DNA from: Candidatus Cloacimonadota bacterium
Lineage (GTDB): Bacteria > Cloacimonadota > Cloacimonadia > Cloacimonadales > TCS61
Assembly (NCBI GenBank): GCA_030596265.1
Contig: JAUVKM010000131.1
Location: forward strand, 1 to 6,372
Length of the DNA: 6,372 nt
Reading direction: 5' to 3'
The stretch's first letter is position 1. Each line of letters begins with the position of its first letter. A program made the position numbers and the translations under genes. The notes under the pieces were generated by a model. It had not been told where the DNA came from. It saw nothing but the letters and a program-made list of their open reading frames with translations, and did not search any database. Positions 3,582 to 6,170 of this stretch are shown here, piece after piece.

Positions 3582-3702
3582 AATTACTTCCTATTGAAAT
3601 TCTTTTGATATGTTTGAAAATTCTGTGCATTACTTTGTCAATAATTTATTTCAAGTGTTAATATACATAATTTCTTACTCCTAATTTCGTTTACTTCGTT
3701 CG

Positions 3703-3826
3703 TTCAATCGTCCCGATTGAATGAAGTATTATAACCAGATCGTCCCGATCGGTAAATAGAAATGGTTCATAAATTACACCGAGACGGTGTTAAAGAGAAA
3801 CAAATGGTTCAATCGGGACGATTGAA
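3703..3826. repeat. Two exact inverted copies of a 19-bp palindromic unit
   Basis: TTCAATCGTCCCGATTGAA at 3703-3721 and its exact reverse complement at 3808-3826 differ only in the orientation of the 3-base loop (TCC versus GGA). The first is extended by ACTTC (3693-3697) and GAAGT (3723-3727). The second is extended to an 11-bp perfect stem TGGTTCAATCG/CGATTGAACCA (3805-3829). A shorter relative, ATCGTCCCGAT, sits between them at 3739-3749, and TCCCGAT/ATCGGGA recurs at 4177-4192. The exact copying points to one repeat family present several times here. Confidence 0.8.
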
Positions 3827-3867
3827 CCAACCATTTTTAAAATAATAATCCAACAGGATTCAACGTG

Positions 3868-3897
3868 AATATTCGCAAGTAGAACTTGCGGAATATT
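3868..3897. repeat. 13-bp hairpin with 3-base loop
   Basis: AATATT-CGCAAGT (3868-3880) pairs with ACTTGCG-G-AATATT (3884-3897), leaving loop AGA and one bulged G at 3891. It is the longest stem of the array. No T-tract follows, so it is not an obvious terminator. Confidence 0.7.
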
Positions 3898-4062
3898 GTC
3901 TCTTTCCAAAACAACCCTGAAGGGGTTGAAACTTTGCGGTTCTATATTTTATTAGAGCCTGTAAACCACAGATTGCATCTGTGATTATTTATATTTAACT
4001 GCTTTGCAGTTTTGGCAATCTGCATGATGAGTTAAGAAATCTTAGATTCTTCCAAAGAACAT

Positions 4063-4078
4063 TCCGGCAGCTGCCGGA
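4063..4078. repeat. Perfect 16-bp GC-rich palindrome
   Basis: TCCGGCAGCTGCCGGA reads the same on both strands and stands out in an AT-rich interval. It could fold as a hairpin or be a dimeric protein-binding site. A second perfect 16-bp palindrome, TCCCGATTAATCGGGA, lies at 4177-4192 and is itself enclosed by CTTCCGA (4143-4149) and TCGGAAG (4198-4204). Confidence 0.7.
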
Positions 4079-4204
4079 TCAGAAAGACAAATTTTCCTAA
4101 TTTCACTTTTCCCTTTTGAGAACATCGGAATGTGCAATAGCTCTTCCGATTGTTCGAATTCAGCCACTCAACATTCTCCCGATTAATCGGGACACATTCG
4201 GAAG

Positions 4205-4359
4205 TTTCGTAGAAGTAAACACACTTTCCAATTATTTATTAACTCCTTTGATAGCTGTTTAGTATTTTAACAACGAAAGAAACATGTTCAAGTGATATTC
4301 CATTTGACAATTAAATGACCCAAAAAAAGTTAATATCAAAATTAAAATAGGATATTTGC
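4205..4359. other. AT-rich gene-free leader
   Basis: I see no gene here. TTGACA at 4304-4309 followed by TAATAT at 4331-4336 could be a promoter for the remnant at 4360, but the 21-base spacing is longer than the usual 17, so this is weak. The segment may be the original upstream region of the broken gene that follows. Confidence 0.3.
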
Positions 4360-4470
4360 ATGAAAAGAAAGCATAGTTGTTTTGCGTTATTTTCAGGTGG
4401 GTTGGACAGCATATTCTGGTACTGCGCAGATCAGATTTGTTTTCGGAAGTGCAAGTCTTTTCACCGGTGA
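4360..4470 (+). pseudogene. Possible 5' remnant of a PP-loop ATP-pyrophosphatase-like gene
   Basis: An ATG at 4360 with AGGA (4349-4352) 7 bases upstream opens a 36-codon frame starting MKRKHSCFALFSGGLDS. The SGGLDS string (residues 12-17) is the PP-loop nucleotide-binding signature of ThiI/QueC-type ATP-pyrophosphatases and sits where those proteins carry it. After it the reading (IFWYCADQI...) no longer resembles that family and stops at TGA 4468-4470. The overlapping +2 frame from here on is clearly a different protein's end. The reading is therefore a truncated gene joined to another remnant at about 4395-4410. The match is short and could be chance. Confidence 0.35.
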
Positions 4471-4654
4471 AGGCTGGTATATCGATGATATCCATTATTC
4501 CAATACTACTGGTAGTAATAATGACACAATAATTCCTATCACAAATCAACTGTTTTCCAACTTCCCCAACCTTTTCAATCCAACCACCACCATTCCTTAT
4601 GAAATAAGGGAATTTAGCCTAACAGTTTTTTCTGAGAGTGTAGTTTCAATTTAA
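4364..4654 (+). pseudogene. C-terminal remnant of a secreted protein with MAM-like/peptidase-associated domain and degraded sorting tail
   Basis: The frame opens after TGA 4361-4363 and reads VGWTAYSGTAQIRFVFGS (about 4397-4450), then GEGWYIDDIHY. This is the closing part of the jelly-roll/MAM-like module seen at the end of immune-inhibitor-A-type and other secreted proteins, which usually has SaYSG..qIRFrf.....GWyiDDI. It continues into NFPNLFNPTTTIPYEI, a Por/FlgD-like sorting tail in which the usual NPFNP has become NLFNP. The reading then ends at TAA 4652-4654 without the rest of the roughly 80-residue sorting domain. No ATG start, signal peptide or catalytic region remains; the only start codon in frame is TTG 4382. 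Both ends are lost, so I call it a pseudogene fragment. Confidence 0.7.
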
Positions 4655-4704
4655 TGAGGTGATGATGGATCATCAAGCAGCATAGAAAGAAAAATTGTTT
4701 TTCG

Positions 4705-4739
4705 AATAACCCATCCGATTGAACCGGATGGGTTATTTT
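4705..4739 (+). terminator. Strong intrinsic terminator
   Basis: A perfect 13-bp stem AATAACCCATCCG (4705-4717) / CGGATGGGTTATT (4725-4737) with a 7-base loop, followed by TT and a T-rich stretch. The A-rich start and T-rich end also allow function in reverse. It separates the upstream remnants from the gene at 4789, suggesting the remnant once ended a transcription unit. Confidence 0.85.
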
Positions 4740-4788
4740 GGTACATTTATTGCAATAGTAACAAATAAATTTGTATTAAGGTGTTATT

Positions 4789-6117
4789 ATGAGATTAAAA
4801 ATAATATTATTGTTTATGTTTATTGTAACTTTGCTTGCAGCACAGAATATATTAATTTGGGATAGAGATGGTGGATCTGAAATATCTGATCCTGAAGAAC
4901 CATGGTCATATGTTGGTTTGGAATCTGGAATAAAAGCAGCATTAACTGCAAACGGTATTTTTCCAGTAATAGATACTCTATTGGCAGATGATCTATCAGA
5001 ATATGATATTATATTTGCAACTGCTGGTATTTGGTGTGGTGACTGAGGATGGACTCCACCAGATCCGGTCGGATCTGAAGATATACAAAAATTAATAGAT
5101 TTTTTAGAAACCGGTAAAGCTGTATATATTGAAAGTGCCATTATGGGTACAGGAGATCATGCTTTATTACGCCCTTATTTTGGATTGGGCAATCATTCCA
5201 TTCCAAATAGCTTATACACAGGAATTGAAACTATCATTGCAGATAGTACAGAAACTTTTTCAGGATACACTTTAAATTATCTGTATGGCACTAATGCCGA
5301 TTATGGTCTTGATGTACTAGATGCAGAGTTAGGCAATCCCTTTACACATTCTCAGGATGATGCTGTCCGTGGTGTTTATTATGATTCCGGACTTTATCGA
5401 ACAATTGCATCTTCCTCTTTCTTTGGAGCAATGGCTGATGGTATTAATAATAACACTAAAGCAGATGTTATGGCACAATTTCTTAGTTTTCTTATTGGAG
5501 ATCCAGCACCAAATATTGTTGCTTCAGAAGATGAACTTGATTTCGGGATAACCTTACCGAATGTTTCTTATACACTTGAATTAGAAATTTCTAATACTGG
5601 ACTAGAGACACTTTTTGTAACAGATGTTGTGATCTCAGGAGAAGGTTTTAATTATTATGGATTAACGGAATTCGATCTAAATACTTCGGAACAACAGGTT
5701 CTTGAAATTGAATTTGAAAAGGATGAACTCGGTCAATTCTACGGTGAATTATCAATTCTTAGTAATGACCCAGATACTCCAGAACTACTTATATTATTGA
5801 CTGCAGAATGTTTGACAGATGCGGATGACGATTTGATCTCAACAACAAATAAGCTAATTGGAAATTATCCTAATCCGTTTAACCCATCTACAACGATATC
5901 GTTTGAATTAGATACAGAGAACACCGAAGATACCAAATTGATGATTTACAATCTGAGAGGTCAGAAAGTGAAAGAATTTTCGAATCTTAGAAATCAGACA
6001 TCTATTACTTGGAACGGTACCGATGACAATAATCAACCCGTCTCATCAGGCATTTATTTCTATAAAATGAAATCAGGTAATTTTGAAAAGACAAAAAAAA
6101 TGATATTGATGAAGTAA
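4789..6117 (+). CDS. Exported amidotransferase/ThuA-like protein with Ig-like and Por sorting domains, interrupted by in-frame TGA at codon 86
   Basis: One continuous frame of 442 sense-or-TGA codons; the only interruption is TGA at 5044-5046. AAGG (4778-4781) lies 7 bases before the ATG. Residues 1-18 are a signal peptide (MRLK, then a hydrophobic run ending LLAA). Residues 19 to about 235 read like a glutamine-amidotransferase/ThuA-type fold: ILIWDRD, EYDIIFATAGIWCGD, then LIDFLETGKAVYIES. No complete catalytic triad was identified. Residues about 245-340 (LDFGITLPN...LEISNTG...ILSNDPDTPE) resemble ASPM/SPD-2/Hydin-like Ig modules. Residues 358-442 (NYPNPFNPSTTI...GQKVKEF...GIYFYKMKSG) are a FlgD-like Por secretion tail, so the product is probably exported. 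Restarting at ATG 5143 would lose the signal peptide, so two separate genes are unlikely. Options are selenocysteine at 86 (C83-G-D-U86), a recent nonsense mutation, or a sequencing error. Confidence 0.75.
5060..5077 (+). promoter_or_regulatory. SECIS-like hairpin downstream of in-frame TGA
   Basis: CAGATCC (5060-5066) pairs perfectly with GGATCTG (5071-5077) around loop GGTC. The stem begins 13 bases and the loop 20 bases after the TGA at 5044-5046. Bacterial SECIS elements sit just inside the reading frame after UGA and carry one or more G in the first loop positions; the E. coli fdhF element also has GGUC in its loop. The bulged U of the fdhF stem is absent here. The hairpin is seen directly; its role in recoding is inference. 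Confidence 0.45.
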
Positions 6118-6138: not shown

Positions 6139-6170
6139 ATAACGCTCCGAGTTTTCGGAGCGTTATTTAT
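6139..6170 (+). terminator. Intrinsic terminator after exported protein gene
   Basis: A perfect 12-bp stem ATAACGCTCCGA (6139-6150) / TCGGAGCGTTAT (6155-6166) with tetraloop GTTT, followed by TTAT. It lies 21 bases after the stop codon at 6117 and ends that transcription unit. Confidence 0.88.

Follow-up and report, generated by a model that had tools for sequence, protein, structure and literature searches.

The gene at positions 4789 to 6117 on the plus strand of the window (the whole 6,372-nucleotide stretch of Candidatus Cloacimonadota bacterium DNA that was analyzed) very probably encodes a selenoprotein in which the TGA at 5044 to 5046 is read as selenocysteine; on the comparative sequence evidence, we put the probability of this reading at roughly 0.93. 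Our computations show that the UGA is conserved, that Cys and Sec exchange at its position, that a SECIS-type hairpin covaries behind it, and that the relatives carry the sel machinery. The gene is one frame of 442 residues followed by its end stop, and its sole internal stop is the TGA at codon 86, in the context I-W-C-G-D-(TGA)-G-W-T-P-P. A preliminary description made from the letters alone had reported a frame broken only by this TGA, in W-C-G-D-(TGA)-G-W, which was confirmed on the sequence. The features of the gene are listed below.

4778 to 4783, plus strand: putative Shine-Dalgarno-like AAGGTG ahead of the start codon, judged from the sequence itself.
4789 to 6117, plus strand: whole candidate selenoprotein gene, 442 residues with the TGA as selenocysteine; relatives share the frame and the TGA.
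4789 to 4842, plus strand: signal-peptide-like N-terminus, judged by inspection of the sequence.
4840 to 5523, plus strand: CxxU domain with a predicted GATase1-like fold, without a Pfam or NCBIfam match.
5035 to 5046, plus strand: C-G-D-U motif (Cys83 and putative Sec86), its Cys at position -3 kept in 53 of 53 family sequences.
5044 to 5046, plus strand: TGA codon probably read as selenocysteine, TGA in 51 of 53 family sequences and TGC in 2.
5060 to 5077, plus strand: bacterial SECIS-type hairpin of 7 bp with loop GGTC at 5067 to 5070, from conservation, covariation, and folding.
5524 to 5784, plus strand: Ig-like domain of the HYDIN/ASH/choice-of-anchor-D kind, approximate extent, from a sub-cut-off PF22544 match and a fold match.
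5866 to 6105, plus strand: type IX secretion sorting tail, PF18962 and TIGR04183 both above cut-off.
6141 to 6164, plus strand: terminator-like 10-bp hairpin followed by a T-rich stretch directly 3' of the gene, judged from the sequence itself.

The TGA codon is conserved among the relatives of this gene. A protein search returned 31 database relatives, including the window's own open reading frame, of which 28 start downstream of codon 86 and 3 are full-length with Trp at the site. Scanning genome contigs located the gene at six loci (L001 to L006, Cloacimonadota or Tenebribacter), all six with TGA at this codon, and two loci of other phyla that match the sorting tail only. A profile of the family (A2) run against 124 genomes of the relatives' phylum gave 66 matches in 49 genomes. 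We read 58 of these in DNA (the eight left out are weak, E 3e-7 to 9e-5, and stop-free), and 3 of the 58 are partial and end short of the codon, so that 55 matches plus the window give 56 sequences at the column: 51 with TGA, 2 with TGC, and 3 remote sequences with CAC or CAT. The 52 family members apart from the window therefore comprise 50 with TGA (from 44 genomes), 2 with TGC (Cys), and none with TGG. In 51 of the 53 family sequences, the in-frame UGA is flanked on both sides by homologous coding sequence. Across 59 domain stretches, TGA occurs 51 times, once per TGA-bearing sequence, and TGG 124 times; TAA and TAG do not occur. The three remote domains (L085, L086, and L087, same phylum) are matched by this profile (E 8e-14 to 2e-10) but differ from the family in having neither Cys nor Sec and a loop like GIYSDNHVLT. 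A search of two genomes from other phyla with a mixed alignment (A5, a 955-position model) was dominated by matches to sorting tails and other shared domains; three matches in genome G126 fell in the CxxU-domain part of the model (38-239, 61-241, and 49-238) and were stop-free. Two observations concern individual records. The protein P0041 carries the label Armatimonadetes but shares 99% identity, over 45% of the query, with L047 from a genome of the Cloacimonadota phylum, so one of the two labels is probably wrong. In L001, the gene at 4146 to 5807 contains one more stop, other than TGA, which precedes the final nine residues of the sorting tail.

Where the codon is not TGA in the family, it encodes Cys. 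The two TGC loci are L045 and L053, and the L045 protein used as a query returned five proteins (P0033 to P0037). Each of the five has C-x-x-C at the motif; two, P0033 and P0035, are the counterparts of these loci, and the other three are further database proteins with Cys. In a tree of 59 sequences built with this column masked, the Cys sequences formed two supported sets (2 and 3 sequences) that share an unresolved fork (92/86) with five Sec sequences, inside the Sec-bearing set. Because the Cys sequences nest among Sec sequences, Sec is probably the older state in the family, as far as a tree whose root is not known can indicate.

The stretch behind the TGA forms a hairpin of the SECIS type. 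It consists of CAGATCC (5060 to 5066), the loop GGTC (5067 to 5070), and GGATCTG (5071 to 5077), a perfect 7-bp stem; the distance from the TGA is 13 nt to the stem and 20 nt to the loop, in line with the preliminary description; folding of 5044 to 5085 returned the same hairpin at -13.2 kcal/mol. The bSECIS model, as given in the available text of PMC13188914, specifies a loop of 3 to 9 nt, a stem of 4 to 16 bp, a distance of 16 to 37 nt from the UGA, a G in the first two loop positions, and a minimum free energy (MFE) of at most -7.5, and the window hairpin agrees with it in each of these points. A search of the window against Rfam at E up to 1 returned no SECIS family and two sub-cut-off sRNA matches. 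Taken alone, the energy of the hairpin is unremarkable (z -0.99, with 37 of 200 shuffles folding at least equally well), and given that a lone hairpin of this composition is not unusually stable, the case for it rests on comparison. As a control, we drew 200 versions of each sequence in which synonymous codons were redrawn, weighted by the gene's own usage, so that the peptide was held fixed. Stems of at least 5 bp that fit the published model were present in 46 of the 51 TGA sequences (90%, versus 45% expected), and stems of at least 6 bp in 39 (76%, versus 19% expected). The best SECIS-type loop started 20 to 21 nt past the TGA in 43 of 51. The mean MFE z was -0.80 and was negative in 44 of 51, and the MFE of the 42 nt after the UGA was at or below -7.5 kcal/mol in 45 of 51, with 6 missing this threshold. 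Five of the 51 were weak: the best fitting stem was 4 bp in L032, L049, and L054, and no fitting uninterrupted stem was found in L034 and L038. Both Cys loci fold strongly in the same place (z -2.58 and -2.29), which means that the hairpin does not depend strictly on the TGA and was not lost along with it at these two loci.

The alignment of these stretches resolves into two pairing registers, in which paired positions sum to 49 or to 50. Each sequence was placed in whichever register paired better, which makes the percentages of paired cells lean towards structure. Register 49 holds 19 sequences (15 unique), including the window and its close relatives, with 85% of cells paired and 13 double-change cells against 5.7 in shuffles. 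Register 50 holds 32 sequences (29 unique), with 99.3% of cells paired; its double-change cells number 38, against 11.4 in shuffles. In both registers, the paired share and the double changes were reached by none of 2,000 shuffles, and slid controls paired 16 to 54% of cells. The number of pair types in register 50 was no higher than in shuffles (1,820 of 2,000 reach it). The covariation can be seen at pair 20/30 of register 50, which is A-T in 13 sequences, T-A in 9, C-G in 6, and G-C in 1. Within the loop, all 44 of the 44 unique sequences have T at position 25, and 42 of 44 have G at position 24; because this GT also starts a conserved Val codon, its near-invariance is not independent evidence and is indistinguishable from protein constraint.

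The machinery for selenocysteine insertion is encoded in the relatives. The preliminary description had proposed looking for the sel genes, and we checked the six genomes that hold L001 to L006, whose completeness is not given. All six have a tRNA-Sec above the Rfam cut-off with anticodon TCA, selA above cut-off, and selB, in each case close to the tRNA-Sec gene on the same contig; a Cloacimonetes type of tRNA-Sec is reported in the available part of PMC5330540. A full-length selD above cut-off is present in four of the six (none was found in G005 and a fragment in G004, again for genomes of completeness not given), and each copy has one in-frame TGA near the N-terminus (L091 to L094), which is where the Sec of SelD is located according to the accessible portion of PMC13188914. 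The stretch behind the selD TGA can form a hairpin like AGTCC-GGC-GGACT, which is part of the lowest-energy fold in three of the four, L093 being the exception. Phylum-wide, a selA match occurs in 61 of 124 genomes (58 above cut-off): in 39 of the 44 genomes with a TGA-form gene (under cut-off in G071 and G083) versus 22 of the 80 others, an association with a Fisher p of 2.7e-11 that is not corrected for relatedness. Among the five TGA-form genomes without a selA match, three have selB above cut-off, G080 has a contig-end selB under cut-off, and no selB was found in G120 (1.1 Mb). Six genomes with neither the family nor selA have no selB above cut-off, and both Cys-form genomes retain selA and selB.

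We considered whether UGA might instead be read as tryptophan, through a changed code or a suppressor tRNA. Three database proteins read as protein only (P0001, P0002, and P0006) have Trp at the site, one of the residues that the preliminary description had named as counting against selenocysteine (Trp, Arg, or Gly), whereas none of the three residues occurs among the relatives read in DNA; we suspect that the Trp comes from gene calling with TGA set as Trp. The 18 open stretches of more than 250 codons in L001 to L006 also lend this reading something, given that none ends in TGA (14 TAA, 4 TAG), as does the UGA release factor gene prfB, which is above cut-off in just three of the six genomes. 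However, Trp in the same domain stretches is written TGG at 124 codons with TGA at this one codon only, the relatives without TGA have Cys, the selA and selB matches above cut-off in the six genomes hold no TGA, and a tRNA-Sec and a covarying SECIS-type hairpin exist. We therefore rejected global reading of UGA as Trp, in agreement with the earlier judgment that whole-genome reassignment was the less likely course, and regard any tryptophan reading as very improbable. An equally slim chance attaches to the idea that the TGA and hairpin act as a regulatory stop or a switch for readthrough: selenium supply would decide the product, and a short one of 85 residues would matter as well. The UGA lies early, so that only this 85-residue piece would be made without selenium; however, conservation of the domain extends to either side of the codon, and the reading frame of the Cys forms runs through it without a break, which argues that the full-length product is the conserved one. 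A lone stop in a single frame of one contig usually points to a sequencing error or a recent nonsense mutation in a gene that is otherwise intact, but this explanation was rejected as next to impossible given the identical TGA in 50 further sequences from 44 genomes, the absence of TAA and TAG across the 59 domain stretches, and the covarying hairpin. Selenocysteine, which the preliminary description had put forward as a candidate reading, is supported by the sel genes of relatives, the Cys homologues, and the conserved covarying hairpin.

The best reading of the protein's layout is a signal peptide, a GATase1-like CxxU domain, an Ig-like domain, and a type IX-type sorting tail. For the CxxU domain, which lacks a match in Pfam and NCBIfam, the GATase1-like fold was assigned from the predicted structure by a second-look aligner, which agrees with the amidotransferase-like fold suggested earlier. 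The CxxU loop has a pLDDT below 50 in this predicted structure, and modelling the domain by itself gave a poor result (mean pLDDT 56.2), which was left unused. The matches listed by Foldseek for the whole model were mostly Ig-like domains. A search of the domain profile against PDB sequences gave two matches, at E 0.57 and 0.59, both reductases, which we took as chance. In class I glutamine amidotransferases, the nucleophile Cys sits at an elbow after the strand following a helix. The strand at this place in our protein, located by topology only, reads AVYIESA and has no Cys. The Ig-like region matches PF22544 at 24.3 bits, under the cut-off of 25.5, and CEP192 and HYDIN domains by structure comparison. 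The sorting tail, which had also been noted from the letters, matches TIGR04183 at 44.5 bits (cut-off 23) and PF18962 at 41.6 bits (cut-off 27), so the protein has the C-terminal sorting domain of type IX secretion cargo.

The mode of decoding is of a known kind, and the family appears to be new. Table 1 of a 2026 inventory (PMC13188914, in the part available) holds 119 selenoprotein families by the inventory's count, and none of these, compared by description alone, fits by name, domain, or motif. The bacterial CxxU selenoproteins covered there (HdrA, GrdA, AhpD-like, SELENOW-like, and others) share with our protein the in-frame UGA, Cys-x-x-Sec, Cys homologues, a hairpin 16 to 37 nt downstream, and the loop-start G; unlike them, as far as these descriptions go, the Cloacimonadota protein combines a GATase1-like fold with a signal peptide and a sorting tail. 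The CTP synthase C-terminal region-related selenoprotein (NF004836) is likewise a Sec protein of the amidotransferase kind, but its motif in the accessible text of PMC13188914 and PMC12013277 is GxUxG, whereas ours is CxxU and lies, by topology, in another loop. NF004836 was not among the NCBIfam matches to E 0.1 for four proteins. The OS_HP2 and DUF1573 selenoproteins (NF041425, PF07610) resemble the Ig-like region, with matches that leave the CxxU domain untouched: for PF07610, the window is just under cut-off (23.4 of 26.1 bits) and L002 and L045 are above it, and NF041425 is far under cut-off. The family is not described in the available portions of PMC13188914, PMC12013277, and PMC9312934, and we found no description in the literature on selenoproteins with Cloacimonadota, Tenebribacter, T9SS, or gingipain, where most subscription papers were outside reach. 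With the codon and its hairpin recurring across dozens of related bacteria, the protein seems to represent a family of exported selenoproteins in Cloacimonadota that has so far gone undescribed.

A gene for a C25 gingipain-like peptidase lies upstream of the selenoprotein gene in L001 to L006. In the window, 4382 to 4654 is a remnant of such a gene (35 residues with 88.6% identity at 4412 to 4516), and the peptidase gene appears mostly lost. Downstream on the opposite strand in L002, positions 7698 to 11615 encode a 1,306-residue protein with an fn3 domain and a sorting tail, and equivalents in L001, L003, and L005 bring this to four of the six loci. The window also holds, at 2 to 1564, an FAD/4Fe-4S protein truncated by the window start, which we read as HdrA-like from its Pfam matches and which has no in-frame TGA in its visible part; elsewhere, HdrA counts among the known selenoprotein families (PMC13188914). 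In the intergenic stretch at 3690 to 4240, short palindromic pieces are repeated around AATCGGGACGATT, as judged by eye.

Collectively, our findings suggest that SelB and Sec-tRNA(UCA), directed by the hairpin at 5060 to 5077, would insert selenocysteine at the UGA at 5044 to 5046, which would create a Cys-x-x-Sec pair in the GATase1-like domain. The signal peptide would export the protein, and the sorting tail points to a type IX-type route that would bring it to the cell surface. At the surface, the CxxU pair would most likely be a thiol/selenol redox center that forms a reversible selenylsulfide; its substrate is a guess, and we advance a role as a surface thiol/selenol oxidoreductase only tentatively. 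A broader proposal, which we consider unlikely as a whole, is that of a phylum-wide, surface-exposed selenoprotein family whose GATase1-like domain has its Sec at a place other than the usual nucleophile position. In the Tenebribacter-like clade, the protein would cooperate with the gingipain-like C25 cysteine peptidase whose gene lies immediately upstream; it might, for example, keep the peptidase thiol reduced extracellularly. If this partnership were true, extracellular protein digestion would be selenium-dependent.

In summary, our analysis adds a probable selenoprotein family, present as TGA-form genes in 44 of the 124 genomes searched in the phylum, and links selenium use there to a protein that is exported. 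Its N-terminal part is missed by standard gene calling, as in the 28 of 31 database relatives that begin past the codon. The SECIS-type hairpins, with their two pairing registers, offer material for studying SelB recognition, and the naturally occurring Sec and Cys forms of the family make it possible to test what is gained from selenium.
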